Virus record (IMG/VR): IMGVR_UViG_3300042402_002564
Location: 182,503-246,502 of that record
Origin: a virus
Strand: one strand, 5' to 3'
DNA length: 64,000 nucleotides
In this document: positions 16,075 to 57,641 of the stretch, piece by piece
Position numbering within the stretch: position 1 is the stretch's first letter
How the letters are laid out: each line of letters starts with the position of its first letter
Position numbers and translations under genes: made by a program
The notes under the pieces: model-generated
Databases searched by the model: none
What the model was told of the DNA's origin: nothing
Seen by the model: the letters and a program-made list of their open reading frames with translations, nothing else

Positions 16075-17154
16075 ATGAAAAAATTATTTAAAATATTGAC
16101 AAGTGAAAGGGTTGAGTATAATAAAAAGAGTATAAAAATCTTTGATATGATGAGATATTCATCTCATATTACTAATATTTTAGAAAGTGATAAAGATAAT
16201 TATATTAAAAATGTATGCTCATTTTTAGAAAAAAAGATAAGTGACAATACAATATTTTTTATTGATGATGAACGGTTTGAACCACAATATCAAAAAATTG
16301 AATTATTCTTTGAGTGTATAAAAAAAATAGATAGCAAACATAAAAATATAATTTATATTGTAAAAACTGAAATATTTGCTGATTATTTTGAAAAATATGA
16401 GATACAAAATTATATATTTGAACCACTGTTAGAAGTCATTAATTTTTATTACGGATCATTTAGAATAAGAAAATCTTTAATCGGAAATAAAATAAAGGAC
16501 GTGCCATTTTGCTCATTAAATGGGACAAAAAATCAAGTTAGAGAATTTTTGTTATATAGATTGAACGATTATAATTTGTTACCTGAAGGATACGTTACTG
16601 CTTGTGGGCAATTTTTTCTAGACCTGAATGAAGACATTAGAAATAATATATCCAAAGATAAATTTTTTGATAAATTTTATTATGATGGAAATCATAAATA
16701 TCATCAAGATAAAAATTTAGTAAATATTCTTTATATTGATAAAAATATTCCAGGTAATATATTTTTAACTGTCGAATCATTTAACTATGATAAAGTAGAA
16801 GAATCACTGAGACCATTATATACTGAGAAAACTTCTACTCCATTTTTGACAAAAAGAATACCTTTAATAATTGGATATAAAGATATTATTCAAGATCTTA
16901 GAATAGGTGGATTTGATATGTTTGATGATATAATTAACTATGAATATGATGAAATTGATCACATAGATTATCAAAAAAAGATTGACTTATGTATAAAAAA
17001 CAATTTACATATTCTTGAACATAATGATTTTTATGATAATTTAGAAATTGATAAGAGATTGGAATATAATAAAAAACATTATAATATATGGGTAGAAAAT
17101 CAAATTTTAAACTTCGAATCTAATATAGAAGAAAAATTAAAGTTATTTGTTTAA
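16075..17154 (+). CDS. Putative glycosyltransferase-like protein
   Basis: 359 residues, very AT-rich. Near the C-terminus TEKTSTPFLTKRIPLIIGY is followed by LRIGGFDMFDDIINYEYDEI. This resembles the donor-binding end of FT10-like transferases found in viral surface-glycan genes (SEKT..P......P.I.G......L...GF..F....D.SYD). The N-terminal half is not recognised. First gene of a surface-glycan island; family assignment is tentative. Confidence 0.6.
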   Translation: MKKLFKILTSERVEYNKKSIKIFDMMRYSSHITNILESDKDNYIKNVCSFLEKKISDNTIFFIDDERFEPQYQKIELFFECIKKIDSKHKNIIYIVKTEIFADYFEKYEIQNYIFEPLLEVINFYYGSFRIRKSLIGNKIKDVPFCSLNGTKNQVREFLLYRLNDYNLLPEGYVTACGQFFLDLNEDIRNNISKDKFFDKFYYDGNHKYHQDKNLVNILYIDKNIPGNIFLTVESFNYDKVEESLRPLYTEKTSTPFLTKRIPLIIGYKDIIQDLRIGGFDMFDDIINYEYDEIDHIDYQKKIDLCIKNNLHILEHNDFYDNLEIDKRLEYNKKHYNIWVENQILNFESNIEEKLKLFV

Positions 17155-17160
17155 TACATT

Positions 17161-17691
17161 ATGAAAGATACATTTATTACTGGTAAAATAGATAGTAATC
17201 TAATTGGAGATTTTAAAAACATAGATTATCCTGGAAGAAGGCAATTTAGAGATGATGAGACTGTTGAGAGGTGGAAAAATCTCGGACATTTGTATGTAAA
17301 TTATACTGGCTTTATTAGAGAAGAATATCGAGGATTGCCAGACTGGTGTGAAAATATAATTTTAGAAATAAAAAAACAACTAAATGTTTGCAACACTTCT
17401 TGTTCATTATATTGTATGCCTCCAGGTACAATAATGCCAGAGCATCAAGATGCATACTTAAATTATAAAAAAATATTTAATATTGGTGAGGTTGATAAAA
17501 TTTGTAGGATATTGGTGTTTATGGACGATTGGAAATCTGGACACTATTTTGAAGTTTGTGACAATCCAATAATAAACTGGAAATCTGGTGATTATTGTAT
17601 GTGGATTGGAAATACTCCACACATTGCTGCTAATATTGGAAGAGAAAATAGATATACATTACAAATAACTGCAACGATTGACGATGAGTAA
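17161..17691 (+). CDS. 2OG-Fe(II) dioxygenase-like hydroxylase
   Basis: 176 residues. The HxD pair (PEHQDAY, near residue 98), a strand RILVFMDDWKSGHYFEV, then GDYCMWIGNTPHIAANIG with the distal His and the RYTLQIT end. This is the layout of aspartyl/asparaginyl beta-hydroxylase-type double-stranded beta-helix oxygenases. It could hydroxylate a sugar, lipid or amino acid; the substrate is unknown. It overlaps the sulfotransferase gene, suggesting joint action. Confidence 0.75.
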   Translation: MKDTFITGKIDSNLIGDFKNIDYPGRRQFRDDETVERWKNLGHLYVNYTGFIREEYRGLPDWCENIILEIKKQLNVCNTSCSLYCMPPGTIMPEHQDAYLNYKKIFNIGEVDKICRILVFMDDWKSGHYFEVCDNPIINWKSGDYCMWIGNTPHIAANIGRENRYTLQITATIDDE

Positions 17692-18409
17692 AAGAAGAGC
17701 CGTTATAGATGAACTAGTAGAACAGTATCCAAAGTATTGTTCTTCTTTCACGTTCAAACTCCAAAAAGGAATACCTGGAGAAGTAATTCATAAAGAAGGA
17801 TTTGTTAATTGCTATATTGATTCGATAAACTATCTTGTTTATATGCATATTGATAAGTGTGGAAGTACCTCTATTACAACCGCATTGGAAGATCAAAAAC
17901 CTTACTTTTTAAGAATGGATAAGATTCCAAAGTCTGAAGAGTTTGCTAAACTTTTAGTGGAAAAAGAATATAAATTTTTTACTGTTGTTCGTGATCCAGT
18001 TTCTAGGTGGATGTCTGGATTGAACGAATTTATGTGTAGATATAGACCACCAATCAAATATGTAATAAATCAACTAAAAGATAAAAGATATGTTTTTGAT
18101 GAACATACAGCACCCCAACATTTATTTTTAAGATTGTGTATAGAAAATGATGCTAATCTTACTTGTATAAAAATGAATTCTGATATGGAGAAAAAAATAA
18201 ATGACGTTATTAGATGCTCTTTGAAAAATGAATCTACTAGAACTTCATACGTTCCATTAAAACTTCCACATTTAAGAAATTCCAAGTATTTTATACCGAA
18301 TTATATAAGTGTTTGTAAAAAATTATATGATGTTTATATAAAACCAGATACTACTCATTTTGATAAACTTTACAGCATAGACATTGACCTTTATAAAAAC
18401 GCAATATGA
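17684..18409 (+). CDS. Sulfotransferase family protein
   Basis: 241 residues from the ATG at 17684. The PAPS 5'-phosphosulfate loop is HIDKCGSTSIT (near residue 62) and the 3'-phosphate site is VVRDPVSRWMSGL (near residue 104), the two hallmarks of cytosolic and Golgi-type sulfotransferases. It probably sulfates a surface sugar. It overlaps the 2OG gene upstream and the aminotransferase-like gene downstream. Confidence 0.82.
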   Translation: MSKRRAVIDELVEQYPKYCSSFTFKLQKGIPGEVIHKEGFVNCYIDSINYLVYMHIDKCGSTSITTALEDQKPYFLRMDKIPKSEEFAKLLVEKEYKFFTVVRDPVSRWMSGLNEFMCRYRPPIKYVINQLKDKRYVFDEHTAPQHLFLRLCIENDANLTCIKMNSDMEKKINDVIRCSLKNESTRTSYVPLKLPHLRNSKYFIPNYISVCKKLYDVYIKPDTTHFDKLYSIDIDLYKNAI

Positions 18410-19020
18410 ATAACTTTAATACAGTAGAAAAATTTGAAAAAATCATAGCAAATTTTTTTGGATCTCCTTATGCAGTAGCAACAGATTGCTGTACTCATGC
18501 TATAGAACTATGTTTAAGGTATGAAAAATATGATAATATACAAATTCCTGAGCATACTTATATCTCTATACCATTTACAGCAGAAAAACTTAATTTAAAA
18601 TGGGAGTGGAAAAAAAATTATTCGTGGTGTGAATACTATCATATTTGGAATACAAACATAATAGATGCTGCAGTTTTTTGGGAAAAAAATGGTTATATTC
18701 CGAATACTTACATGTGTTTAAGTTTTCAGTATAAAAAACATTTAAATCTTGGTAGGGGTGGTATGATATTATTGGATAACTATGAATCTTATAAAGAACT
18801 CAAAAAAATGGTGTATGATGGAAGAACTTCTGAAAAACCTTGGATGGAACAAAATATTGATACGATAGGATATCATTATTATATGACGCCAGAAGTTGCT
18901 GAAACTGGCATACATAAATTTAGTAAAATTTCTGAAAAACAAACAAAAAAATGGGGATATCTAGATTATCCTTTTTTGCCAGATATGGAGGTGTTTAAAA
19001 AAAATGGATTTAGAAAATAA
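18406..19020 (+). CDS. Short DegT/DnrJ-like PLP aminotransferase homologue
   Basis: 204 residues, about half the usual 370-400. DegT-family blocks are recognisable: FFGSPYAVATDCCTHAIELCL, IPEHTYISIPFTAEKL, SFQYKKHLNLGRGGMIL (with the PLP lysine position) and IGYHYYMTPEVAETGIHKF. The C-terminal domain is missing, and the start overlaps the preceding stop. It may be a reduced sugar-modifying enzyme or a decaying gene; the coupled overlaps argue that it is translated. Confidence 0.7.
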   Translation: MNNFNTVEKFEKIIANFFGSPYAVATDCCTHAIELCLRYEKYDNIQIPEHTYISIPFTAEKLNLKWEWKKNYSWCEYYHIWNTNIIDAAVFWEKNGYIPNTYMCLSFQYKKHLNLGRGGMILLDNYESYKELKKMVYDGRTSEKPWMEQNIDTIGYHYYMTPEVAETGIHKFSKISEKQTKKWGYLDYPFLPDMEVFKKNGFRK

Positions 19021-19882
19021 ACTTAAAGGTCTCCCCCCAGTTTTTTATTTGAACCTTGATCATAGGACAGATAGAAAAGAATATATGGAAAATCAGTTTA
19101 AAGAAAGAGGTATAACTGATTATACTAGAATATCTGCTTCTAGATTTGCAACATCAAAAATTGATGAGTGGGGTCATAGATTAGACTTGATGCTATTGGC
19201 TAAATCTGATGCATCCATTGTAATGAATCAGTTTACTACAATAATTGATTGGTATAATTCTGGTATATCAGAAACTTGTATAATAATGCAAGATGACCTA
19301 AGTTTGGAATTAATTGATTATTGGTCATTCGACTGGAATACTATCGTTAAAAGTTTGCCATATAATTGGGATTGTGTTCAATTTTATCATTGTCACAATG
19401 AAGAAATGCGTATGCATTTGCATAAAAGAAGTTATGGTAGTTCTTCTGCTGCTTGTTACATGATTAATAGATGGTACGCAGAAAAGTTAATAAAGATGCA
19501 TTTGCAACCAGATAACTCATTTAAACTTAAAAATAATTTGAAGGATGTAAGTGTTCCTAAAGAGTGTTATAGTAGTGATGACTTCTTGTTATATCAAATT
19601 GGTGTGAGTTATAGTTTACCAATTCTATGTTTAAACCAAAGACTTTCTCAAACTCCTGATAATAAAATGCAAGAAGATGAGACTGAAGATGACTATGATC
19701 CAGTTATAAGCATATATCACAACAAAATTCACGATATATTGGCTAGTACTTGCGTAAGGAGATGGTGGGAAAATGAAAGTTCAAAATATAAAGCAGAAGA
19801 TATTCTGAGTTATGGTGGTTCTATACATAAAAAGATGATTGTACCAATACCAAAGTTTAATAGAAAGGTGCTTCCAAAATGA
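19004..19882 (+). CDS. GT25-like glycosyltransferase, array copy 1
   Basis: 292 residues, RBS GGAGG 14 bases upstream, start inside the previous gene. The family pattern is VFYLNLDHRTDRKEYMENQF at the N-terminus, then IIMQDDLSLELIDYWSFDW near residue 96, LPYNWDCVQFYH and a terminal SYGG element. LPS-type GT25 enzymes use an acidic motif here; this copy reads QDD instead of EDD. First of six tandem paralogues. Acceptor and sugar donor unknown. Confidence 0.82.
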   Translation: MDLENKLKGLPPVFYLNLDHRTDRKEYMENQFKERGITDYTRISASRFATSKIDEWGHRLDLMLLAKSDASIVMNQFTTIIDWYNSGISETCIIMQDDLSLELIDYWSFDWNTIVKSLPYNWDCVQFYHCHNEEMRMHLHKRSYGSSSAACYMINRWYAEKLIKMHLQPDNSFKLKNNLKDVSVPKECYSSDDFLLYQIGVSYSLPILCLNQRLSQTPDNKMQEDETEDDYDPVISIYHNKIHDILASTCVRRWWENESSKYKAEDILSYGGSIHKKMIVPIPKFNRKVLPK

Positions 19883-20742
19883 ACGTAGAATTGAATAAAT
19901 TAAAAACAATAGGATTTCCAAAAATCTTTTATTTGAATTCTGATTCTAGACCAGATAGAGGAAATTACATGGAATGGTCTTTTGAAAAGTGGGGAATAAA
20001 AAACTATGAGCGAGTTCCTACTAGTAGATTTTCACCAACAAATTACCATGATTGGTCGGAATTAATTTTAGATGAAAATATTTTACAGACACCTGAAGAA
20101 ATATCAAAAACTATTAATCATTTGAAAACAATAGTTGATTGGTATGATAATGGTGATGAAGAATATTGTATGATAATGGAAGACTTGATTGATATGAAAT
20201 CAATAGACCAATGGATGTTTGATTGGCAAACACTTTATAAAAATCTACCTTATAATTGGGATTGTATACAGTTATTTTTTTATAGCAATAGAACCATCAA
20301 CATGCATCTAAAACCAAAAGATGATGATACAAAAGGTGTATATTGTTATATGATAACTAGGCAGTTTGCTAAAAAAATTAAAGAACTTCATTATCATGAT
20401 GGAAGATTCAAATTTTTTATTAATAATAGAAATTTAAAATTACCAGAATATAAGTATGGGTCATTAGAATCCTTTTTATTTGAATTGGGAATAACCTATA
20501 CTTTACCAGTATTTTATTTGAGTTTAAAACATTTTGGTGAACCTAAAGAACTCGAAGATACATTGTGTAAACTCTCTTCGGAATCTATTGAGTTTTGGTG
20601 GAAAATAAAGTCTAAAGAATTTTCTATGCAAGAGTTCTTTTCATATAATAAAAGATATGATTGGAAAATGGAAGTTCTTTTTGATTTAAAAGAAAAGCAA
20701 GTGTATATGGATAAAGTTGAAAAAATAATGTTATGGATTTAA
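19879..20742 (+). CDS. GT25-like glycosyltransferase, array copy 2 (acidic motif lost)
   Basis: 287 residues, ATGA overlap with copy 1. It has the family N-terminus (IFYLNSDSRPDRGNYMEWSF) and LPYNWDCIQLFF, but the acidic motif reads MEDLIDMKS, so one of the two central aspartates is replaced by Leu. It may be catalytically weak or a structural partner of the other copies. Confidence 0.78.
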   Translation: MNVELNKLKTIGFPKIFYLNSDSRPDRGNYMEWSFEKWGIKNYERVPTSRFSPTNYHDWSELILDENILQTPEEISKTINHLKTIVDWYDNGDEEYCMIMEDLIDMKSIDQWMFDWQTLYKNLPYNWDCIQLFFYSNRTINMHLKPKDDDTKGVYCYMITRQFAKKIKELHYHDGRFKFFINNRNLKLPEYKYGSLESFLFELGITYTLPVFYLSLKHFGEPKELEDTLCKLSSESIEFWWKIKSKEFSMQEFFSYNKRYDWKMEVLFDLKEKQVYMDKVEKIMLWI

Positions 20743-21587
20743 AAAATAAATTAAAAAATATGCCAAAAGTCTATTATTTTAATTTAGATAATAGAACAGA
20801 TAGAAAAAAATATATGGAAAAACAATTTGATAGGTGGGGCATAAACTATCAAAGAGTATCTGGAACCAAATACCTAGCTTCAAAAAACAAAGAATGGAAG
20901 CATTTAATTATTGATGTAAAAAACTACAAATTGTTAGTTCCTATTGCAGCAAATGCTATTTCTCATTTGGAGTTTTTAAAAAAATGGTATGAAGAAACAA
21001 CAGATCCGTATGTTCTGTTGATGGAAGATGATTATGATTTAAATCTAATAGAATATTGGCATTTTGATTGGGATTACTTAATGTCTAGACTTCCATATGA
21101 TTGGGATTGTCTGCAGTTGGGATTTGAGAATCCAATAGGAATACCTTTTTATCTACATCCAATGGCAACATCTCATGATTTTGGACCATGCTTACTTAAT
21201 AGGGATTATGTATACAAACTAATATCCTTGCATTGTGTTGATGATAAGTACAAACTAATTAATACCATATCTAATGGTGCTTGGAATGCTGAGGAAGGTG
21301 GATGTGGATCTGGAACAGTAGATTACTTTATATGTCATTGTGGTAAAACTTATTCCATACCATTAATAACAATAAATCCATCTTTTGGTAGTTTTGAGAA
21401 TAATAGTTTACTTCAAAAACTCTATAGAAATAATGGCGATGTGATGGCTAGAAATACATATTATTATTGGTGGCAAAATGAAAGGGATAAGTTTACTTTA
21501 GATGATTTTTTTACTTATGGAAAAAAACATGATCGCAAAATGATATTAGACCAAAAACAATATGGAAACTATAGACCTAAAAAATAA
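20733..21587 (+). CDS. GT25-like glycosyltransferase, array copy 3
   Basis: 284 residues, starting inside the end of copy 2. Canonical pattern: VYYFNLDNRTDRKKYMEKQF, acidic motif MEDDYDLNLIEYWHFDW near residue 97, LPYDWDCLQLGFENP, and the ending FTYGKKHDRKM. Closest in sequence to copies 4 and 6. Expected to be an active transferase of the phage glycan pathway. Confidence 0.83.
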   Translation: MDLKNKLKNMPKVYYFNLDNRTDRKKYMEKQFDRWGINYQRVSGTKYLASKNKEWKHLIIDVKNYKLLVPIAANAISHLEFLKKWYEETTDPYVLLMEDDYDLNLIEYWHFDWDYLMSRLPYDWDCLQLGFENPIGIPFYLHPMATSHDFGPCLLNRDYVYKLISLHCVDDKYKLINTISNGAWNAEEGGCGSGTVDYFICHCGKTYSIPLITINPSFGSFENNSLLQKLYRNNGDVMARNTYYYWWQNERDKFTLDDFFTYGKKHDRKMILDQKQYGNYRPKK

Positions 21588-22467
21588 ATTAAAAGGGTTT
21601 CCCCATGTTTATTATTTTAATCTTGACCAAAAAAGAGATCGTAAAAAATATATGGAAACCCAATTTGAACGTTGGGGGATAGAATATACTAGAATGTCAT
21701 CTAACATATATTCTATATGGAATTATGATGATTGGACCACAAATAAAGTAACTGGCGATAAAAGTGATACTGATCAAAGACTTTATGCTCCAGCAATGAT
21801 GCATTTTGAGTTATTTAAAAGATGGTTACATGATACAGATGAAGAATACATTCTCGTAATGGAAGATGATTATGATTTAAATTTAATTGAATACTGGCAT
21901 TTTGATTGGAATTATTTGATGTCTAAATTGCCTTATGATTGGGATTGTATTCAATTAGGATTTGAAACTTCAAATGTAATATCATTTTATCTTCATCCAG
22001 TAAAAGAAGACTATTCTTTTGGACCCTGCTTGTTTAAAAGAGAATATGTAGAGAAACTTTTAAGACTTCATTCTGAGGGATTTAAATATAGGTTTGATTT
22101 TAATATTTCTAATTGTCATTGGAGAGATAGACGAAATTATAAAAATGCTGCAGGTTCTTTGGAATATTTTATGTGTCAATCTGGAAGAACTTATTCAATT
22201 CCATTAATTGCATTAAACCCTTATTTTAGTTTTTGGTACTATAAAGATAAATGGATACCTAAATCTTATTTTCAAATGTGCTATGATTCTTATTATGATT
22301 GGTGGCAGAATGATAGAGATAAGTTTACTTTGGATGAATTTTTTACTTATGGAAAAGTAAATGATAAAATTATGGAAAGAAATCTCGAATATTGTGACAC
22401 TAAATATTTTGAAGAAAAGACCAAAGTATGTAGAGAAAAATTCTTGAAAAAATATGGATTTAAGTAA
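21562..22467 (+). CDS. GT25-like glycosyltransferase, array copy 4
   Basis: 301 residues, start 26 bases inside copy 3. Pattern VYYFNLDQKRDRKKYMETQF, intact acidic motif MEDDYDLNLIEYWHFDW, LPYDWDCIQLGFET and the FTYGKVNDKIM end, followed by a charged 25-residue tail that the other copies lack. Probably active. Confidence 0.83.
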   Translation: METIDLKNKLKGFPHVYYFNLDQKRDRKKYMETQFERWGIEYTRMSSNIYSIWNYDDWTTNKVTGDKSDTDQRLYAPAMMHFELFKRWLHDTDEEYILVMEDDYDLNLIEYWHFDWNYLMSKLPYDWDCIQLGFETSNVISFYLHPVKEDYSFGPCLFKREYVEKLLRLHSEGFKYRFDFNISNCHWRDRRNYKNAAGSLEYFMCQSGRTYSIPLIALNPYFSFWYYKDKWIPKSYFQMCYDSYYDWWQNDRDKFTLDEFFTYGKVNDKIMERNLEYCDTKYFEEKTKVCREKFLKKYGFK

Positions 22468-23254
22468 TAAGTTATTCGGAATACCAAAAGTATATTATTT
22501 TAATTATGATGAGCACAAAAACAGAAATTACCATATGGATAGAAATCTTGGTAATTTAAAGGTTGCTAATTATGAAAGAATTTCGGCATCAAAATATACA
22601 TCCAAAAATTATGATGAATGGAAAAATTTAATCATAGATGTTGAGAATTATAAGTTAACACCAAATATTGCTGGATATGCAATCACAGTATTAGAATTTT
22701 TAAAAAAGTGGTTGGAGGAAACTGATGAAACAGAATTAATAATAACAAAAGATACTATTGATTTTGATTTAATTGAATATTGGAAATTTGATTGGAATTA
22801 TTTAAAATTTAGACTTCCTTATGATTGGGATTGTATTCAACTTGGATTTGAGAATTCTCAATACATACCATTTTATTTACATCCAATACTTCCTTCTAGT
22901 ACTTTTGGTCCATCGTTACTCAATAGATATTATGTAAAAAAAATAGTTAAATTGCATTGTATTGGTAGTCAATATAAACTGAATAATTATATTGCAAATA
23001 TGTATTTTAGCGGACAATCGGGAACAGTTGATTATTTCATTGGGCACAACGGAAATACTTATTCGATGCCATTATTTCCAAATAAACCAGAATTCTTTGA
23101 TAAAAATACTAAAAAATATGTTCTAGTTTATATCTGTAAAAATGCATATCATGAATGGTGGAAGAAAGAAAGTAGCAAATTTAATCTAGATGAGATATTT
23201 ACTTACGGAAAATATAATGATATTGGAATGGTAAAAAAACTTCGTAAAAAATAA
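22454..23254 (+). CDS. GT25-like glycosyltransferase, array copy 5 (acidic motif lost)
   Basis: 266 residues, start inside copy 4. N-terminus VYYFNYDEHKNRNYHMDRNL is already divergent, and the acidic motif is replaced (LIITKDTIDFDLIEYW instead of MEDDYDLNLI). The surrounding LPYDWDCIQLGFEN and FTYGKYNDIGM are kept. The frame is intact, so it looks like a pseudoenzyme under selection rather than a broken gene. Confidence 0.78.
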   Translation: MDLSNKLFGIPKVYYFNYDEHKNRNYHMDRNLGNLKVANYERISASKYTSKNYDEWKNLIIDVENYKLTPNIAGYAITVLEFLKKWLEETDETELIITKDTIDFDLIEYWKFDWNYLKFRLPYDWDCIQLGFENSQYIPFYLHPILPSSTFGPSLLNRYYVKKIVKLHCIGSQYKLNNYIANMYFSGQSGTVDYFIGHNGNTYSMPLFPNKPEFFDKNTKKYVLVYICKNAYHEWWKKESSKFNLDEIFTYGKYNDIGMVKKLRKK

Positions 23255-23262
23255 TTAAAATT

Positions 23263-24081
23263 ATGAATATTAATCTGTCAAACAAGTTAAAAGGGCTTCC
23301 TCATATCTATTATGTAAATTTGGATAATAGAACTGATAGAAAAAAATATATGGAATCCCAGTTTGATTTTTGGAGAATAAAAGATTATACTAGAGTGTCT
23401 TCTTCAAAATACTTAGCATCTGAGTCTGAATCTTGGGCAAATAAAGTTATTGATGGGAGCATAAAAAATTTATCCTCATATGTTGTTGGTAATGCAATAA
23501 CCCACTTAGAACTTCTAAAAGATTGGGTTAATAATTCTAGCGATGATTATGTGATATTAATGGAAGATGATTATGATTTGAATTTAATACAGTATTGGAA
23601 ATTTGATTGGCAATACCTTATGTCTAGGTTGCCTTATGACTGGGACTGTATTCAATTGGGATTTGAATCAAAAGAATTTATTCCATTTTTTCTACATCCA
23701 AAATTAAGACATAGTTATTTTGGACCTGTTATGATTACTAGAGAATATGCTAAAAAGATATTAAGATTGCATTGTGTTGGGGAAGATAAGTATTCTTTAG
23801 ATAAATTGATGGGAGATTATAATTTTAAAGTTTGTTCTACTTCAGTAGATTATTTTATGGGACATACTGGCAGAACATATTCTATTCCATTGATAACTAC
23901 AAATGTTGATCTTGGTAGCACTGAAAGTGACATACAAATAGAGAGGCGTCATCATGTTAAATCCAGAGCCGCATATTATTATTGGTGGATGAAGAGAAGT
24001 ATGAAATATAGTTTAGATGAATTTTTTACCTATGGAAAACCAAACGATCAAGAGATGGTTATTAGTACGGTTGACTATTAA
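23263..24081 (+). CDS. GT25-like glycosyltransferase, array copy 6
   Basis: 272 residues, the only array copy separated from its neighbour by a short gap (8 bases). Pattern IYYVNLDNRTDRKKYMESQF, intact acidic motif MEDDYDLNLIQYWKFDW, LPYDWDCIQLGFESK and end FTYGKPNDQEM. Probably active. The last codons carry the -35 box of the promoter for the next gene. Confidence 0.83.
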   Translation: MNINLSNKLKGLPHIYYVNLDNRTDRKKYMESQFDFWRIKDYTRVSSSKYLASESESWANKVIDGSIKNLSSYVVGNAITHLELLKDWVNNSSDDYVILMEDDYDLNLIQYWKFDWQYLMSRLPYDWDCIQLGFESKEFIPFFLHPKLRHSYFGPVMITREYAKKILRLHCVGEDKYSLDKLMGDYNFKVCSTSVDYFMGHTGRTYSIPLITTNVDLGSTESDIQIERRHHVKSRAAYYYWWMKRSMKYSLDEFFTYGKPNDQEMVISTVDY

Positions 24082-24099
24082 ATAAAAAATGATTATAAT
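24071..24099 (+). promoter_or_regulatory. Sigma-70-like promoter
   Basis: TTGACT, 17 bp, TATAAT; 12 bases upstream of the amidinotransferase start. Overlaps the end of GT25 copy 6. Confidence 0.75.
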
Positions 24100-24111
24100 G
24101 TCTTTATTTAA

Positions 24112-25086
24112 ATGTATAGTACTAATGAGTGGGGAAAATTAAAAAAAATTGTAGTTGGTGTTGCTGACTATGCTGTAGTTCCCCCAGTTGATAAAAGTTT
24201 GCGGACTATTAACTATGCTGATCTTAAGGATACTTCTGAAATCAAGGTTGGACCATATCCAGAGCAAGTAATTGAAGAAGCAAATGAAGATTTAGAAATA
24301 CTTGTAGATTTTTTAAAGTCTCAAGATGTAGAAGTATTGAGACCAAAAAGAGAAAAAACAGATTATTATAACTATTGCCCAAGAGATTGTGTATTCGTTC
24401 ATGGTGAAGTTGCATTAGCGACACCAATGCCATTAAGATCCAGATTGGGTAATTGGAGATCTTATTCTCATCATTTGACCGATGTTATTGAAATGCCTTG
24501 TTGTTATTTCGATGATCTTTACAATGAAGAATGTGTTGGAAATCCAGACATTCTTGCATTGACTGAAGTAACTCCTGCATTTGATGCCGCCAATATAATT
24601 CGTGCAAATAATGAGATTTTATATCTGGTATCAAATAGTGGAAATGTTGCGGGTGCAAAATATTTACAATCACTTTTGGATGAACATTATGATGGAGAAG
24701 TTCAGGTAAATCTTCTCCAAAATGTATATTCATATGTTCATATTGATACTACTATTGCATTTTTAAGAGAAGGTCTTTTACTTGCAAATCCAAGTAGAAT
24801 AAAAGATAAAGATGATTTGCCTGAACCATTTAATGAGTGGGAAATAATTTGGTGCCCAGAACCTGTAGACACTGGATACTATCCAGGTTATAATCATGCA
24901 TCACCTTGGTCCAATATGAACTTGCTTAGTGTTAGTCATGAGTTAGTAGTCTTGGAAGAACATCAACATCCAACTAGACAAGTATTGGAAAGATATGGGA
25001 TTGAGTGTGCTATGCTTCCCATGAGACAACAAAGAACATTAAGTGGTGGATTTCATTGCGTAACTTTAGACCTTGAGAGAGAATAA
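24112..25086 (+). CDS. Amidinotransferase (glycine/inosamine amidinotransferase family)
   Basis: 324 residues. Family marks: PRDCVFVHGEVALATPMP (near residue 91), TPAFDAANI (near 155), HIDTTIAFL (His near 204) and the catalytic Cys in GGFHCVTLDL near the C-terminus. These enzymes move an amidino group from arginine to an amine. Next to a sugar dehydrogenase and transferases it may make a guanidino-sugar or guanidino-amino acid decoration; substrate unknown. It has its own promoter. Confidence 0.85.
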   Translation: MYSTNEWGKLKKIVVGVADYAVVPPVDKSLRTINYADLKDTSEIKVGPYPEQVIEEANEDLEILVDFLKSQDVEVLRPKREKTDYYNYCPRDCVFVHGEVALATPMPLRSRLGNWRSYSHHLTDVIEMPCCYFDDLYNEECVGNPDILALTEVTPAFDAANIIRANNEILYLVSNSGNVAGAKYLQSLLDEHYDGEVQVNLLQNVYSYVHIDTTIAFLREGLLLANPSRIKDKDDLPEPFNEWEIIWCPEPVDTGYYPGYNHASPWSNMNLLSVSHELVVLEEHQHPTRQVLERYGIECAMLPMRQQRTLSGGFHCVTLDLERE

Positions 25087-25088
25087 TT

Positions 25089-26306
25089 ATGGAAATTGGA
25101 TTTATTGGATTGGGTAAATTGGGTATGGCATGTGCGGAAGAAATAGTTCTGCATGGGCATAATGTATATGGGTATGATATTTGTGATAAAAATAGTAACC
25201 TAGTACAAGTTAAAAAAAGTATTGAGGATGTTGTAAAAATTAGCGATATTGTTTTTATTGCTGTTCCAACTCCCCATGATCCAGAATATGATGGTAGTAA
25301 GCCATGTATGGACTTGAATCCAAAAGATTTTAGTTATGACATTGTAAAGGAGTGTTTGATTGAATCAAATTGTTATATGAATAAGAATCAACTTTTGGTT
25401 CTTATTTCTACAGTTCTTCCTGGAACAACTAGAAATCAATTTTCGAGATTAGTCCAGAATACTCGATTTGTTTATAATCCATATCTTATTGCAATGGGGT
25501 CTGTTGCTTGGGATATGGTCAACCCAGAAATGGTAATGATTGGTACTGAAGATGGTACTGAAACTGGGGATGCTAAACAACTCATTGAATTCTATAAAAC
25601 TGTTATGGAAAATGATCCCCCATATGTTGTTGGTACGTGGGATGAATGTGAATGTATTAAAGTTTTTTATAATACATTTATTAGCAACAAAATTAGTTTT
25701 GTGAATATGATACAAGATGTTGCCGAAAAATCTAAGAATATTAATGTTGATGTTGTTACAAGTGCGTTATGCCTTGGTGCATCTAGAATCATTAGTCCTC
25801 ATTATATGAAGGCAGGAATGGGTGATGGTGGTGCTTGCCATCCAAGAGATAATATTGCCCTCCGTTATCTTGCAGAAAAACTAGATCTGGGGTATGATTT
25901 CTTTGAAGGAATTATGCGTTCTAGAGAAGTTCAAGCAAAAAATCTTGCTAAAAAGTTAGTTGAACTTGCTGGCGATGTCCTACCAATTGTCATTCATGGA
26001 AAAGCATATAAACCAAAGGTTCCTTATATTGATGGGAGTTATAGTCTTTTAGTTGGGCATTATTGTGCTGAGATGGGCAAACCACCAATTTATGTTGACA
26101 AATATACTGGAGACGAATATACTCCTGATGGTCCTGCAGTTTTTCTTCTTGCTCACAGTGCATCTACAACTTACTGGCATGATGAGAGTAATGATGAACT
26201 TTATTGCAATATTCCAAAAGGAAGTGTTGTTCTGGATCCGTGGAGAAAATTTAAGTCAAATGATGTTAACGTAATTTATTACGGCAACACTCGATTTGGT
26301 TCTTGA
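25089..26306 (+). CDS. UDP-glucose/GDP-mannose dehydrogenase family enzyme
   Basis: 405 residues. N-terminal NAD site GFIGLGKLGMACAEE, central STVLPGTTRNQF and FVYNPYLIAMGS, catalytic Cys in GMGDGGACHPRDNIALR (near residue 250) and a C-terminal IHGKAYKPKVPYIDGSYS. This order fits nucleotide-sugar dehydrogenases that make UDP-uronic acids or relatives; the R in HPRDN replaces the usual PKD lysine. Last gene of the first glycan island. Confidence 0.85.
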   Translation: MEIGFIGLGKLGMACAEEIVLHGHNVYGYDICDKNSNLVQVKKSIEDVVKISDIVFIAVPTPHDPEYDGSKPCMDLNPKDFSYDIVKECLIESNCYMNKNQLLVLISTVLPGTTRNQFSRLVQNTRFVYNPYLIAMGSVAWDMVNPEMVMIGTEDGTETGDAKQLIEFYKTVMENDPPYVVGTWDECECIKVFYNTFISNKISFVNMIQDVAEKSKNINVDVVTSALCLGASRIISPHYMKAGMGDGGACHPRDNIALRYLAEKLDLGYDFFEGIMRSREVQAKNLAKKLVELAGDVLPIVIHGKAYKPKVPYIDGSYSLLVGHYCAEMGKPPIYVDKYTGDEYTPDGPAVFLLAHSASTTYWHDESNDELYCNIPKGSVVLDPWRKFKSNDVNVIYYGNTRFGS

Positions 26307-27510: not shown

Positions 27511-27519
27511 ATGGAGTAT

Positions 27520-27590
27520 GGGGGATTAGTTTAGTGGTAAAACGGGTGCTTTGCAAGCATCAATCACCAGTTCGACTCTGGTATTCTCCA
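27520..27590 (+). tRNA. tRNA-Ala(UGC)
   Basis: Cloverleaf read by eye: acceptor GGGGGAT/ATTCTCC, anticodon loop TTTGCAA, T arm CCAG-TTCGACT-CTGG, discriminator A. The 3' CCA is not encoded. Confidence 0.9.
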
Positions 27591-27593
27591 TAT

Positions 27594-27676
27594 GCCTAAG
27601 TGGTGGAATGGTAGACACAGCGGACTTAGAATCCGCCGCCTTAAAAAGCGTGGAAGTTCGAATCTTCTCTTGGGCA
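27594..27676 (+). tRNA. tRNA-Leu(UAG)
   Basis: Class II tRNA: acceptor GCCTAAG/CTTGGGC, anticodon stem GCGGA/TCCGC with loop CTTAGAA, long variable arm, T loop TTCGAAT. Co-transcribed with tRNA-Ala, 3 bases apart. Confidence 0.93.
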
Positions 27677-27683
27677 CTAAATA
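27677..27683 (+). promoter_or_regulatory. Late-like box CTAAATA
   Basis: CTAAATA immediately after tRNA-Leu, 26 bases before the start at 27709; matches the variant seen at 32704. Confidence 0.4.
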
Positions 27684-39641: not shown

Positions 39642-40595
39642 ATGAGCGTTTTTAAACTTACCGAGGCATATAATGCCATTTATGACGAAGATTTGAGATC
39701 TGAAGTTGAAGATATGAATGAGGAGTTTGTTGGTGTAGAAGAACTCTCAGATGAAGAATTAGACTCTATTGTTGAAGAAGCAATTTATGATGTTTTAAAC
39801 GAAGGATTTGATATTGAAGAACTTGATGTAATTTTTGAAGAAGTTATTTTAGAAGCAAAAGTAACCATGGGTCGTGGTGGTGAAGCAGGTGGAAGTGATA
39901 AAGTAACTTCTGGATCTGGTAGCAGAATGGCTGCTGCATCTAGATTATCTGCATCTAAAGCAAAAAGAAGACAGGAAAGAATTGCTAAAGTAAAGGGTGC
40001 AATTAAAAAGGGTGTTGAAAAAGTAAAGTCTGCCCCTGGTGAAGCAAAGAAGGCAGCAGAGAAAAAGGTAAAGGATGTTAAGCAACAGTCTCACGTAGCT
40101 GCTGCTAAGTACGCAAATAAGCGTAATTTGGTTAAAGGGGCTGGTCTTAAGACTCAATCAAGTAAAGGTAGATCGGAACTTCGTTCTGCAGTTGCAAAAG
40201 ATATTAAATCAAGAGTTGGTGCTAAGATTAAAGCAGCCGCAGATAAAGTAAAGCAAAAAGCAGCATCTGCAGCAGTATCTGGTTATGCTGCCGCAAAGTC
40301 TGCTAAGCAAGCAGCATCTGATGTTAAGAACAAGGCAGTTCAATCTGCTAAGAACAAGGCAGCAGTTGCTAAGAGAGGTGCTAAGAGTGCTGTAGGTAAG
40401 GCAGCAAGGGCGGTTGCTAGCGGTGCTGGTAAGGTTGCTTCAAGACTTGGTGAAGAGACTGAGGTTGTCGATCTTTATGATGTTATTCTTGAGCATCTAA
40501 TTGAAAATGGATATGCAGAGACTCCAGAATCAGCAACAGTTATCATGGCAAATATGTCTGAAGAATGGAGACAAAATATTTTAGAAAGTATTTGA
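39642..40595 (+). CDS. Histone-H1-like Ala/Lys-rich virion-type protein
   Basis: 317 residues from the ATG at 39642. The N-terminal ~85 residues are strongly acidic, the middle (about 100-270) is Ala/Lys-rich like histone H1 (many KAA, AAK, SAK repeats), and the end is VVDLYDVILEHLIENGYAET then PESATVIMANMSEEWRQNIL. That C-terminal module is shared with the protein at 26826. Late promoter. I infer a DNA-binding head or core protein that may be cut during head maturation. Confidence 0.68.
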   Translation: MSVFKLTEAYNAIYDEDLRSEVEDMNEEFVGVEELSDEELDSIVEEAIYDVLNEGFDIEELDVIFEEVILEAKVTMGRGGEAGGSDKVTSGSGSRMAAASRLSASKAKRRQERIAKVKGAIKKGVEKVKSAPGEAKKAAEKKVKDVKQQSHVAAAKYANKRNLVKGAGLKTQSSKGRSELRSAVAKDIKSRVGAKIKAAADKVKQKAASAAVSGYAAAKSAKQAASDVKNKAVQSAKNKAAVAKRGAKSAVGKAARAVASGAGKVASRLGEETEVVDLYDVILEHLIENGYAETPESATVIMANMSEEWRQNILESI

Positions 40596-40616
40596 TAAAT
40601 GTAATCAAATAACAAC

Positions 40617-40646
40617 AAAGAGACCTTTTACAGGTCTCTTTTTTTA
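40617..40646 (+). terminator. Terminator
   Basis: AAAGAGACC/GGTCTCTTT stem, 7 nt loop, T-run. Confidence 0.85.
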
Positions 40647-40675
40647 TAACTATTGATAGATGTAAATAAAATTCG

Positions 40676-40831
40676 ATGGTCCATATAACTGATATTTACG
40701 AATTGAAGGCAAGATTAGATAAGTTAAAACATCAAATTGATAAAGAGTCTAGATATCCTGGGGAGAAGGAACTTGCCCATAAATATCTGAGCAAAGCTAT
40801 TGACTATGTGAATGAGTTACAGTTATACTAA
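40676..40831 (+). CDS. 51-residue charged hypothetical protein
   Basis: Reads MVHITDIYELKARLDKLKHQ and continues to YVNELQLY; predicted helical throughout. It overlaps the GIY-YIG gene start by 20 bases, suggesting coupling. Function unknown. Confidence 0.6.
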   Translation: MVHITDIYELKARLDKLKHQIDKESRYPGEKELAHKYLSKAIDYVNELQLY

Positions 40832-48149: not shown

Positions 48150-48307
48150 GTGGAGTCAAATGACCCTCATTTTGGTTTCTTGCTTTTCCATTAAAAAGCA
48201 AGTGGTGCGGATGGGGAATTCTTTCTCCGCCTGGTTTCTTGCCTCCAGTTAAAGGGCAAGTGGCGAGCCTGAATTTACTAAGATGGGTAAATCCCATCTT
48301 TTTTTAT
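48150..48307 (+). ncRNA. Repeat hairpin RNA with terminator
   Basis: Two copies of a TGGTTTCTTGC...GCAAGTGG element. Copy 1 (near 48173-48212) has the stem CTTGCTTTT/AAAAAGCAAG; copy 2 (near 48233-48264) has CTTGCC/GGCAAG. Between them is GCGGA/TCCGC. A GATGGG/CCCATC terminator with seven T ends it near 48307. Probably a non-coding RNA or a 3'-end element of the upstream message. Confidence 0.5.
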
Positions 48308-48314
48308 ACCATAA

Positions 48315-48322
48315 AATAAATA
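48315..48322 (+). promoter_or_regulatory. Late-like box AATAAATA
   Basis: AATAAATA 17 bases before the radical SAM gene. Confidence 0.4.
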
Positions 48323-48339
48323 CATTTTTAATTCTTATT

Positions 48340-49152
48340 ATGGTAGAAGTATCTCACTTAGAATGGCATATAACACATTCATGTAATTTTATGTGTCAGG
48401 GGTGTGGGCATTTTACTAATGATGGATATAATGAGCATATATCAATTGATGATTTAAAAAAATGGTATTCACTTTGGAAAAATAAAATAAAACCCAAAGA
48501 ATTATCAATACTCGGTGGAGAACCTTTATTACACAAAGATTTAATTGATATAATTTACATGACAAAAGAGGAATGGAATATTCAAGAAGACCAATATTAT
48601 GAGATAGTTACTAATGGTGTTTTAATTGATAGGCATCCAGAATTACCAAAAGCTTTATATGATACTAATTGTGTCATGACAGTATCAATGCATTCTTATG
48701 ATAAAGAATACTTAAAAGTGTTTTTAAAATCTTTATCTAAAATAAATGAATGGGTTGAATTATATGGTATTAATGTAGTATTAAATGATTCTGCTAATCA
48801 TTGGATAAAAACCTATCATGGTAGTGGTAAAAACATACTTCCTTTTGAAGACAATGATCCACAAATGAGTTGGGATAGATGCCCATCAGGACAACAGAAT
48901 TTTCAATTATATAATGGAAAAATGTATAAATGTTCGCCACTTGCATATCTACAACTTAAAAAAAGAAAATATGGAGATCAATTATCACCAAAATGGGATC
49001 CATATTTAAAATACAAACCATTATCACCAGATTCTACTGAAGAAGAAATATATGAATTTTTTAATAGAGGATCAGAATCTGTCTGTAGCATGTGTCCTAA
49101 GAACCCTCAAAAATTTATAAAGTCTAATCCGATGAAAAAATTCATTGACTGA
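48340..49152 (+). CDS. Radical SAM enzyme
   Basis: 270 residues from the ATG at 48340. The 4Fe-4S/SAM motif is CNFMCQGC (residues 14-21, CxxxCxxC). SILGGEPLLHKDL follows (GGEP), then extra Cys in the C-terminal part (CPSG, YKCSPL, VCSMCPKNP) suggesting an auxiliary cluster as in SPASM-type enzymes. Target unknown; could modify a sugar or a peptide. Opens the second glycan region. Confidence 0.82.
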   Translation: MVEVSHLEWHITHSCNFMCQGCGHFTNDGYNEHISIDDLKKWYSLWKNKIKPKELSILGGEPLLHKDLIDIIYMTKEEWNIQEDQYYEIVTNGVLIDRHPELPKALYDTNCVMTVSMHSYDKEYLKVFLKSLSKINEWVELYGINVVLNDSANHWIKTYHGSGKNILPFEDNDPQMSWDRCPSGQQNFQLYNGKMYKCSPLAYLQLKKRKYGDQLSPKWDPYLKYKPLSPDSTEEEIYEFFNRGSESVCSMCPKNPQKFIKSNPMKKFID

Positions 49153-49173
49153 ATTTTGTTTTAATGTTAGGAT
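49145..49173 (+). promoter_or_regulatory. Sigma-70-like promoter of gmd
   Basis: TTGACT, 17 bp, TAGGAT; 24 bases before gmd, overlapping the radical SAM stop. Confidence 0.5.
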
Positions 49174-49197
49174 GCAATCCATATCATAATTTAACAT

Positions 49198-50199
49198 ATG
49201 AAAGTTGCCCTTATCACTGGAATAACAGGACAGGATGGATCGTATCTTGCAGAATTGCTTCTTCAAAAAGGTTATGAAGTTCATGGCATTGTTAGAAGAG
49301 CATCCCTTATCAATACTCATCGTATTGACCATATCTTTGATTCTATTAATCTCCATTACGGTGATCTTACTGATTCTACCAATCTTGTAAGAGTTATTCA
49401 GCAGGTTCAACCAGATGAAATTTATAACTTGGGTGCCCAAAGTCATGTAAAAGTGTCTTTTGAGATGCCAGAATATACTGGTATGGTTGATGGTCTTGGA
49501 ACTCTTCGTATTCTTGAAGCAGTTCGTCTTTTAGGAATGGAGAAAAAAACAAGAATTTATCAAGCATCTACTTCTGAACTATATGGTCTCGTTCAAGAAG
49601 TACCACAAAAAGAAACAACCCCTTTTTATCCTCGTTCACCTTATGGAGTCGCTAAACTTTATGGATACTGGATTATTAAAAACTACCGAGAATCGTATGG
49701 ATTACACGCAAGTTCTGGAATTCTTTTCAATCACGAATCCCCTCGCAGAGGAGAAACTTTTGTCACAAGAAAAATCACTCGCGGATTATCACGAATTTCA
49801 ACTGGGGAACAGGACGTATTATATCTCGGAAATTTGAATGCAAAGCGTGATTGGGGACATGCTAAAGACTTTGTTGAAGCAATGTGGTTAATGCTTCAAC
49901 AAGATAACCCAGATGACTATGTAATCGCTACAGGAAAACAATACTCGGTACGCGAGTTTGTTGAAGAAGCATCACCTTATTTTGGAATGAAAATTGCTTG
50001 GGAAGGTGAAGGTTTAGATGAAGTTGGTATTGATAGACTTACTAAAAAAGTAATAATTAGAGTTAATCCAAAATATTTTAGACCAGCAGAAGTTGAATCT
50101 TTGTTGGGAGACCCATCAAAAGCGAAAGAAAAACTAGGATGGGAACCAAAAATTACATTTGAACAATTAGTTGAGGACATGTGTTTATATGGACAATAA
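49198..50199 (+). CDS. gmd: GDP-mannose 4,6-dehydratase
   Basis: 333 residues. NADP site [15 protein letters not shown], catalytic region ASTSELYG and [11 protein letters not shown] (YxxxK), and [15 protein letters not shown], all typical of Gmd. It makes GDP-4-keto-6-deoxymannose, the first step to GDP-L-fucose. Overlaps the fucose synthase gene by 11 bases. Confidence 0.95.
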
Positions 50200-51127
50200 T
50201 TCTAAAATCTTTGTTGCTGGTCATAATGGTTTAGTTGGATCTGCAATTGTTAGAAATTTAAAGTCAAAAGGGTATAATAATATTATTACTGCAAATAGAA
50301 AACAACTAGATCTTACCGATCAATGTCAAGTTGATTTATTCTTCATTGAAAATAAACCAGATTATGTATTTCTTGCTGCAGCAAAAGTAGGTGGTATCGT
50401 TGCTAATCGAGATTATCCAGCAGATTTTATTCGAGACAATCTTTTAATTCAAACAAATGTAATTGATGCCTCTTACCGATATGGTGTAAAAAAACTGGTA
50501 TTTTTAGGGTCTTCTTGTATATATCCTAAACATCCAACTATTCCGATTACAGAAGATCAATTCCTTACTGGACCATTAGAACCCACAAATGATGCCTACG
50601 CAGTTGCAAAAATTGCTGGAATTAAAATGTGCCAAGCGTATAATAAACAGTATGGATTTAATGCAGTCTCATTAATGCCAACTAATCTTTATGGACCTAA
50701 TGATAATTTTGACCCAGAAAGTAGTCACGTTATTCCAGGTATAATGGGGAGAGTTCATAAGGCAAAAATTAATAATGAACCTTTTATAGAGTGTTGGGGA
50801 GATGGATCTGCATTACGTGAATTTTTATTCATTGATGATTTTGCTGAAGCATGTTATACTTGCATGATTAAATATAATAACCCTGAAATTATTAATATCG
50901 GTAGTGGCAAGGATATTACAATTAAAAATCTAACAGAATTAATTTGTAATGTTTTAGATTACACTGGTGAAATTAAATGGGATACTTCTAAACCCAATGG
51001 AACCCCAAGAAAAGTGATGAATGTTGATAAAATTAAATCTCTTGGATGGGATACTAAAACTGGGATTAGACAAGGTTTATACGAAACATACGAATGGTTT
51101 AAAAACAATGTCAATGATCGGATTTAA
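50189..51127 (+). CDS. fcl: GDP-L-fucose synthase
   Basis: 312 residues from the ATG at 50189. NADP site [41 protein letters not shown] (YxxxK) and [13 protein letters not shown], all diagnostic. It finishes GDP-L-fucose from the Gmd product. The 3' end overlaps the fucosyltransferase gene. Confidence 0.95.
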
Positions 51128-55440: not shown

Positions 55441-55442
55441 TT

Positions 55443-55910: not shown

Positions 55911-56857
55911 AAATTACATTAGTTGGACCAGGCATTATGCCTATTCCCCCTACTGGGTGGGGTGCAGTAGAAATATTAATTTGGGATACTAAACTTGCCT
56001 TAGAAGAACTGGGGCATGAAGTTCAAATTGTAAATACTAAAGATTACAGGCAAATTATTAATGAAATAAATGCATTTGTACCTGATTTTGTGCATGTGCA
56101 TTATGATGAATTTATTAATCTTTGTCCATACATCCAATATCCATCTGCAATTACAAGTCATTTTGGATATTTAGAGAGACCTCAAATGTTTAATGGTTAT
56201 GCAAATGTTGCCAATCAATTTGCTTCTATTAAACCAAATATTTTTTGTTTATCTGAAGGAATCTCTAAGGTATATCAAATAATGTTTAATATTCCTAAAG
56301 AGAATCTTTTTATTACTCCAAACGGAGTTAATATTAATCAATTTAAAGTCTCAGAATCTCCAAAATACCCAGACAGATCAATCTATCTTGCAAAGATTGA
56401 TTATAGAAAACGTCAACATCTATTCCAGTCTATTGATAGTCTTTGGTTTGCTGGAAATCTTGCTGATAGTAGATTTAATACTAACAAGAACTATTTGGGT
56501 GAATGGTCTAAAGAAACTCTATACAATGAACTCACCGATTATGGTAACCTTGTTCTTCTATCTGATGGGGAGGCACATCCATTAGTTTGTATGGAAGCTC
56601 TTGCCGCAGGTCTTGGTGTAGTAGTATGTGAATGGGGCAAAGCAAATCTCGATCAATCTAAACCATTTATTACTATTATTCCAGAAGACAAAATTGATGA
56701 TTTAGAATACATTGAAGAAAAAATTGTAAAAAATAGAGAGTATTCAATTTCTCATCGGGAAGAAATTTTAGAATATTCTAAAAACTTTGATTGGAAAGAA
56801 ATCTTACAAAAATATTATATTCCTAGTATAGTTAAAGTTATTGAAAATCATGGATAA
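55907..56857 (+). CDS. GT4-like (GT-B) glycosyltransferase
   Basis: 316 residues from the ATG at 55907, overlapping the previous stop. PIPPTGWGAVEILIWD, FVHVHYDEF, FITPNGVNINQF and LLSDGEAHPLVCMEALAAGLGVV (E..EA..AG donor motif) are typical of GT-B family 4 enzymes. Donor unknown. Confidence 0.85.
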   Translation: MKITLVGPGIMPIPPTGWGAVEILIWDTKLALEELGHEVQIVNTKDYRQIINEINAFVPDFVHVHYDEFINLCPYIQYPSAITSHFGYLERPQMFNGYANVANQFASIKPNIFCLSEGISKVYQIMFNIPKENLFITPNGVNINQFKVSESPKYPDRSIYLAKIDYRKRQHLFQSIDSLWFAGNLADSRFNTNKNYLGEWSKETLYNELTDYGNLVLLSDGEAHPLVCMEALAAGLGVVVCEWGKANLDQSKPFITIIPEDKIDDLEYIEEKIVKNREYSISHREEILEYSKNFDWKEILQKYYIPSIVKVIENHG

Positions 56858-57641
56858 AAATAAATCAATAAGTAAATTGAAAAACTTTGGACCTGTTTAT
56901 TATTTGAATTTGGATGGTCAACCAGAAAGAAAACAGTATATGGAGGAACAGTTTTCTTACTGGGAAATTGAAAATTATACTAGAATTTCTGCCTATGATG
57001 GTAGAGATGACGATTTAAGTGATATCATAAAAGGAAGGTATCCAGAAAATATGTCATCTGGTGAGGTTGGATGTGTAACCTCACATCTTAAAGCAATTGA
57101 ACATTGGTATAATAATTCTGATAGTCCTTATGCAATTATCATGGAAGATGATTGCAATTTAGATATTGCTAGATTTTGGACATTTACCTGGGAAGACTTT
57201 ATTTCTAGGGTTCCCTATGATTGGGATGTTGTTCAATTGGCAATTATTTGTACTGGTGATATTCATGTGAAAATTCATAAACGATTTGTGAATGAATTTT
57301 CCACTGCATGTTACGCAATCACTAGACACCATGCAGAAAAATTAATTAAACTCCACATTAGAGATGGTAAGTATAAACTGGACAATGGGGTAAAACCAAG
57401 GCCAGTTGCAGATGATTTATTGTATAATTCTGGAAATACTTATTCAGTACCATTATTATTGTATAAAATTGAGTTAGGTTCTTCTATTCATCCTGATCAT
57501 ATTGATATTTTTCACAGAAACAGTCATGATGGAATATTTAATTTCTGGTCTCAAGCAGGGGCTCAATTGACAATTGATCAACTTACCGACTATGATCCTT
57601 ATCTAGGGAGAGTCACTGATCCATCTGGTGGACAGCGGTAA
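56850..57641 (+). CDS. GT25-like glycosyltransferase, distant copy 7
   Basis: 263 residues from the ATG at 56850. VYYLNLDGQPERKQYMEEQF, YTRISAYDG, SSGEVGCVTSHLKAIEHWY and acidic motif MEDDCNLDIARFW, VPYDWDVVQLAI. Better matches classical LPS GT25 (GEVGC..SH) than the array copies at 19-24 kb and may be close to their ancestor. Confidence 0.85.
   Translation: MDKNKSISKLKNFGPVYYLNLDGQPERKQYMEEQFSYWEIENYTRISAYDGRDDDLSDIIKGRYPENMSSGEVGCVTSHLKAIEHWYNNSDSPYAIIMEDDCNLDIARFWTFTWEDFISRVPYDWDVVQLAIICTGDIHVKIHKRFVNEFSTACYAITRHHAEKLIKLHIRDGKYKLDNGVKPRPVADDLLYNSGNTYSVPLLLYKIELGSSIHPDHIDIFHRNSHDGIFNFWSQAGAQLTIDQLTDYDPYLGRVTDPSGGQR

Follow-up and report, generated by a model that had tools for sequence, protein, structure and literature searches.

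Collagen glycosylation by COLGALT1 and LH3, together with the mimivirus proteins R655, R699 and L230, places glycosyltransferase family 25 (GT25) enzymes beside 2-oxoglutarate/Fe(II) (2OG-Fe) hydroxylases, and a viral precedent for this pairing is available (PMC9546862). The metal site of the COLGALT1 GalT-C domain is an EDD core formed by Glu435-Asp436-Asp437 (PMC13382579), and that of the LH3 glucosyltransferase is Asp112-x-x-Asp115 with His253 (PMC11012932). In the chondroitin polymerase, CHPF lacks the DxD motif and most donor residues and yet is required in the CHSY-CHPF complex (PMC12748766). Here we describe, in the terminal 64 kb (the window; positions 182,503 to 246,502) of the 246,502-base virus record IMGVR_UViG_3300042402_002564, an array of six GT25-like genes in which copies 2 and 5 are predicted to have the fold of the collagen and mimivirus enzymes and, like CHPF, have lost donor-site residues, in their case under purifying selection. 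The likeness to CHSY-CHPF lies in the combination of an active glycosyltransferase with a paralogous partner lacking donor residues; however, CHSY and CHPF are human bidomain GT31/GT7 proteins with a demonstrated complex, whereas for the phage array we infer one.

The 246.5-kb record carries photosystem reaction-centre genes at each end, which identifies the source virus as a cyanophage. The cyanophage counterpart already described is a single-copy 'glucosyltransferase' (S-SM2, S-CAM7, B23) of the phrog_2835 family, which is matched by all seven GT25-like copies in the window. Relatives of copy 6 were found at 102 places in 97 cyanophage records, so that nearly all of these records carry a single copy; B23, the single-copy record examined, has a canonical EDD and, unlike the window, neither an array nor a degenerate member. 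S-SCSM2R (PQ898602), a Synechococcus phage isolate, resembles the window in having several array glycosyltransferases (four) plus a DegT-type aminotransferase, a 2OG-Fe oxygenase and an amidinotransferase, and also in that its third glycosyltransferase (229 aa) is degenerate. It differs in that its locus follows a tail-tip/2OG-Fe module, has another slot set, includes a radical SAM gene and is annotated gene by gene only. In the library of papers searched, none joined 'cyanophage' with 'glycosyltransferase family 25', and none named S-SCSM2R. To our knowledge, few descriptions of phage gene arrays include conserved pseudoenzymes. Because the degenerate copies hold fixed slots across about 30 contigs, a non-catalytic glycosyltransferase role becomes testable in a compact cassette, and the related cassette of S-SCSM2R, which was isolated on Synechococcus WH7803, makes a laboratory test feasible.

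Degenerate copies in fixed slots

The array occupies 19004-24081 as six consecutive open reading frames (ORFs) on the + strand, overlapping or nearly touching (overlaps of 4-26 bp at the first four junctions), with lengths of 292, 287, 284, 301, 266 and 272 aa for copies 1-6. Copies and array slots bear the same numbers; omega is the dN/dS ratio and pLDDT the predicted local distance difference test score.

19004..19882, +, GT25-like copy/slot 1, QDD in place of EDD, donor motif intact (phrog_2835 E 6e-41; E to Q in 25/25 orthologues)
19879..20742, +, GT25-like copy/slot 2, degenerate MEDLID, probable pseudo-glycosyltransferase (phrog_2835, motifs, predicted GT25 fold with pLDDT 90, omega 0.06-0.36)
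20733..21587, +, GT25-like copy/slot 3, canonical MEDDYD (PF01755 30.3 bits; motifs invariant in 28/28)
21562..22467, +, GT25-like copy/slot 4, EDD intact, slot missing from 5-copy arrays (phrog_2835, tree, motifs)
22454..23254, +, GT25-like copy/slot 5, degenerate KDTID, probable pseudo-glycosyltransferase (phrog_2835, motifs, predicted GT25 fold with pLDDT 94, omega 0.04-0.25)
23263..24081, +, GT25-like copy/slot 6, canonical MEDDYD (phrog_2835 E 2e-49; motifs invariant in 23/23)
56850..57641, +, copy 7, single classical GT25 with the strongest phrog_2835 match, in a separate fucose/GT6/GT11 glycan locus (Pfam, phrog_2835)

All six array copies match the phrog_2835 'glucosyltransferase' profile (E 3e-32 to 2e-49), and copy 7, whose ATG start at 56850 lies within an ORF listed from a TTG at 56841, matches it with 410 bits. 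Only copies 3 and 7 (49.8 bits) score above the curated cut-off of the Pfam GT25 profile (PF01755); copies 1, 4 and 6 fall under it at 18.7-20.2 bits, and copies 2 and 5 give no match to this profile. MEDDYDLNLI is found in copies 3, 4 and 6, MQDD in copy 1, MEDLID in copy 2 and TKDTID in copy 5. Copies 3 and 6 combine the EDD metal core with the donor motif NLDxRxxR; at the donor-motif position, copies 4 and 7, both with EDD, read NLDQKRDR and NLDGQPER, respectively, copy 5 (KDT) reads NYDEHKNR and copy 2 (EDL) reads NSDSRPDR. An earlier note on this DNA had reported six tandem GT25-like paralogues with a seventh at 56850 and the same motif differences, and the ORFs, profile matches and motifs agree with it. 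It had also called two acidic motifs destroyed, which is correct as to loss but overstated, since copy 2 keeps ED and copy 5 keeps D-x-x-D (E to K, D to T).

Relatives were gathered by scans of viral contigs, and 88 contigs with arrays were compared. In a tree of 280 representatives of the array copies, each slot is monophyletic (support for slots 1-6: 1.0, 0.996, 0.977, 0.98, 1.0 and 0.931), and the six copies have a single common origin, each slot being an orthologous lineage. The window's class comprises about 30 contigs with 5 or 6 copies, located downstream of uvsX-gp41 and upstream of the amidinotransferase, dehydrogenase and MazG genes; slot order is constant throughout, and the 5-copy arrays lack slot 4 but otherwise match that of the window. 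Arrays of a second class have 3-5 copies, all canonical, with DegT, 2OG-Fe and amidinotransferase genes; those of a third have DegT and 6 copies, of which the last is degenerate (IMSDHVDYS).

Motif loss follows the slots. EDD and NLDxRxxR are intact in all members of slots 3 and 6. Slot 2 lacks the third acidic residue (D) in 27/29 and NLDxRxxR in 26/29. In slot 5, the pattern K/R-D-x-x-D replaces EDD: E has become K or R in 26/26, the third position is never D, D-x-x-D is kept, and NLDxRxxR is lost in 26/26. In slots 2 and 5, the arginine columns of the donor motif show comparatively low conservation, whereas PYxWD is 100% and WW 90-100% conserved there. Slot 5 retains the C-terminal VDYF aspartate; slot 2 has lost the C-terminal aspartate.

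Nei-Gojobori (NG86) omega was obtained from 13 close pairs, not all independent and with dS near or above 1 in several, and ranges over 0.04-0.25 for slot 5 (median about 0.09), 0.06-0.36 for slot 2 (0.18) and 0.02-0.17 for slot 3 (0.085), with a median of 0.07 for slot 6. Maximum-likelihood omega for slots 1-6 is 0.029, 0.070, 0.046, 0.058, 0.046 and 0.040, respectively, slot 1 being the most constrained copy despite its E to Q change. The combination of low omega with conserved structural motifs in slots 2 and 5 thus indicates that these copies are not decaying; neutral decay of copy 5 is strongly argued against, and copy 2 is constrained, yet more relaxed.

AlphaFold models, built from alignments that left out rows from isolate records, have mean pLDDT values of 94 (copy 5) and 90 (copy 2). 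Their closest folds are COLGALT1 GalT-C (Z 15.2 and 16.6 for copies 5 and 2, respectively) and mimivirus R655 (Z 15.1 and 16.6), on which they superpose with a root mean square deviation of about 3 across about 188 residues. Copies 2 and 5 are therefore predicted to be well-folded GT25 domains with altered donor sites.

Several proposals of the earlier note can be judged against these comparisons. Unrelated origins of the copies or a dN/dS near 1 for copies 2 and 5 would have pointed away from its idea of subfunctionalised or non-catalytic members; each slot is instead a clade across genomes and omega lies far from 1, so that a single origin, subfunctionalised members and, probably, non-catalytic members are supported. 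Copy number, which it had proposed to compare, does change among relatives (5 or 6 copies in the window's class, 3-5 and 6 in the two others, 4 in S-SCSM2R), but its picture of an expanding array is not supported, since the arrangement is ancient and stable, with slot 4 as the sole difference between 5-copy arrays and that of the window. Nor is that of a diversity-generating cassette: no reverse transcriptase (PF00078) was found in the record, with positive controls, each slot stays distinct, and gene conversion is weak. The recombination for which it had proposed a test between canonical copies is seen in part, as weak gene conversion between slots 3 and 4 (pooled codon identity 72% in the EDD block versus 63% elsewhere, clearest in contigs L086 and L125), but not recently between window copies 3 and 4, where 17/28 in the EDD block compares with 62/96 elsewhere.

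Roles of copies 2 and 5

The explanation that we favour, and hold at about even confidence, is that the array supplies the core glycosyltransferases of a mobile glycan cassette in cyanophages, in which canonical copies build an oligosaccharide, copies 2 and 5 are kept as non-catalytic partners, and the acceptor is probably a virion or surface component. Copies 3, 4 and 6, and probably 1, would each add a single residue to a short oligosaccharide, and dehydrogenase, aminotransferase, amidinotransferase, sulfotransferase and oxygenase would supply and decorate its sugars (amino, guanidino, sulfo, uronic). Copies 2 and 5 would transfer no sugar and would serve as structural or acceptor-binding partners of active paralogues, as CHPF does for CHSY; by this analogy, a mixed complex of array copies is possible and is the reading that we prefer. 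The most likely acceptor would be a component of the virion or surface, tail-tip proteins being the leading candidate. In this scheme, we infer the reaction order, the sugar, the acceptor and any complex. A more elaborate proposal, namely a heteromeric machine in which fixed-slot pseudo-glycosyltransferases organise active GT25 paralogues that build a guanidino-modified oligosaccharide on tail-tip adhesins, is considered improbable as a whole.

Some observations weigh against a non-catalytic partner role. Slot 2 is the least constrained copy, with the highest omega of all slots, and its ORF is broken in two contigs with intact close relatives (L077 6052-6887 and L134 8248-9107), by a one-base deletion in one and an early stop in the other; these breaks may be sequencing errors or real loss, and slot 2 may thus sometimes be dispensable. 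One slot-2 member, L086.2, has intact motifs, and the codon tree groups L086 with L125, L055 and L056, so that repeated motif loss or re-acquisition in slot 2 is possible. The acidic pair of slot 2 and the D-x-x-D of slot 5 may also leave these copies with some activity, residual or altered, and the second array class, which has no degenerate copy, implies that some arrays do without such a subunit. Taken further, the retained residues would allow all six copies to be active, their donors or acceptors having diverged; copies 1, 2 and 5 would then coordinate the metal differently, and copy 5 would rely either on D-x-x-D, as at the LH3 site (Asp112-x-x-Asp115; PMC11012932), or on a basic residue that substitutes for the metal. 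This is rather unlikely in our estimation: the basic residue at the E position in 26/26 slot-5 members, the VDYF aspartate and the strong constraint on slot 1 speak for it, but NLDxRxxR is lost and its columns drift in slots 2 and 5, and slot 2 is also without the C-terminal aspartate. That copies 2 and 5 are decaying pseudogenes in an array produced by neutral duplication is barely tenable, since the high omega and two broken ORFs of slot 2 are outweighed by omega values far under 1 in all pairs, conservation of the slots across contigs at about 40-60% protein identity, confidently folded models and the same degenerate pattern in every slot-5 orthologue. For copy 5 this reading is already contradicted.

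Sugar cassette and acceptor

The array is part of a cassette of about 10 kb (16075-26306) between gp41 and mazG, the MazG gene following the cassette dehydrogenase. The genes flanking the array, with putative enzyme assignments made by homology, are as follows.

16075..17154, +, 359-aa protein, first gene of the insertion after gp41 in the window lineage, also in contig L052 (no Pfam or PHROG match)
17161..17691, +, 2OG-Fe(II) dioxygenase-like, Asp/Asn hydroxylase-like (weak PF05118; HxD, distal H and R kept in orthologues)
17678..18409, +, sulfotransferase (PF03567 E 4e-7; found in 37 array contigs)
18406..19020, +, mini DegT/StrS-type pyridoxal phosphate-dependent aminotransferase, 204 aa (PF01041 E 4e-15; lysine motif SFQxxKHLxLGRGG conserved)
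24112..25086, +, StrB-like amidinotransferase (inosamine-phosphate amidinotransferase 1bwd E 5.5e-59)
25089..26306, +, UDP-glucose/GDP-mannose dehydrogenase family protein (PF00984/PF03721; phrog_9148 E 6e-95)

Since gp41 and mazG are directly adjacent in S-SRM01 and separated by one gene in P-SSM2, the block is an insertion at a core junction. Across the 88 array contigs, DegT occurs in 65, the 2OG-Fe-like gene and the amidinotransferase in 60 each, and the sulfotransferase in 37; among isolate records, the amidinotransferase was found in S-SCSM2R only. Its match to 1bwd spans residues 5-323, with the catalytic-cysteine motif GGFHCVTLDL conserved. The mini-DegT has no PDB sequence match at E 0.001, and the 2OG-Fe-like protein has no meaningful one. 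The presence of a StrB-like amidinotransferase and a minimal DegT alongside the GT25 array suggests that cyanophages have an unusual guanidino- or amino-sugar. The streptidine pathway likewise combines a DegT-type aminotransferase with an amidinotransferase, the phage enzyme being nearest to the StrB structure 1bwd; however, the phage DegT is a 204-aa minimal form, and no cyclitol pathway was identified. No relative pointing to a bacterial origin of the array was found in genome contigs (A1 profile), in a scan limited to two short peptide patterns.

In about 45 contigs of the second and third classes, the array lies after tail-tip-like genes and a double 2OG-Fe oxygenase. The preceding module consists of two or three tandem collar-like proteins of about 170 aa (motifs AP.GW, HSHP and Y.DVI.C; no Pfam match), a Cys-rich protein, an acidic protein and the double 2OG-Fe oxygenase; from these motifs and general knowledge of T4-type tail fibres, we take the collar-like proteins to be tail-tip adhesins. 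With arrays at gp41-mazG in one class and after the tail-tip module in others, the cassette has at least two docking places. The gene order in these contigs supports a link between array and tail tip, but the case is less strong because the window's class lacks this link: the window phage also has a tail-tip module (record 92-95.5 kb), but no array adjoins it, the array lying about 110 kb away.

Surface sugars are a plausible product of the array, as the earlier note had proposed. A virion acceptor has as its chief competitor the host surface polysaccharide (lipopolysaccharide, LPS), which would be remodelled in infection, for example for superinfection exclusion; this fits either view of copies 2 and 5, and we regard it as a tentative possibility. 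GT25 is described as an LPS-biosynthesis family, the window also has a GDP-fucose, GT11 and GT6 locus, and the cassette lies among replication genes in the window's class; however, arrays of the other classes are associated with tail-tip-like proteins and 2OG-Fe oxygenases, and the cassette genes scanned included no recognisable gene for a lipid-linked glycan or a flippase. The position directly after uvsX and gp41, and the 2OG-Fe oxygenase-like gene, might instead recall glycosylation of phage DNA, as by T4 glucosyltransferases, but this is very unlikely: no thymidylate-synthase-type dCMP hydroxymethylase (PF00303) was found in the record, with positive search controls, the predicted fold is nearest to protein and oligosaccharide GT25 enzymes, and other array classes lie at the tail locus. 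A search for TET/JBP also gave no match, but its controls were silent too, so that it was uninformative. A collagen acceptor in the window phage was rejected, as no collagen repeat (PF01391) was found in the 246.5-kb record, with positive controls; a further difference from collagen glycosylation is that the cassette oxygenase, judged by its sequence, is not a lysyl hydroxylase.

Neighbouring genes and the second glycan locus

In the tail-tip region of the window phage (contig L179 2719-11488; record about 86.7-95.5 kb), the collar-like proteins and double 2OG-Fe oxygenase lie downstream of a radical-SAM-like protein and of a protein related to NolO-like carbamoyltransferases. Genes for tRNA-Ala and tRNA-Leu (window 27519-27677) lie directly downstream of the MazG end of the cassette. 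A second sulfotransferase relative, 37% identical to the cassette copy, is located outside the window at record 40199-40774. A mini-DegT relative (53-57% identity) occurs in the 642-kb uncultured phage LR756502.1 (contig L175 9765-10355), where it adjoins a UDP-sugar dehydrogenase and other apparent sugar genes.

The second glycan locus (window 48283-57641) contains radical SAM, GDP-mannose dehydratase, GDP-fucose-synthase-like epimerase, GT11 and GT6 genes, a fusion of HAD and nucleotidyltransferase, a GT4-like gene and GT25 copy 7; GT6 is the family of the histo-blood-group enzymes. An ORF with an S-layer homology (SLH) domain, at window 57749-58624, adjoins this locus.

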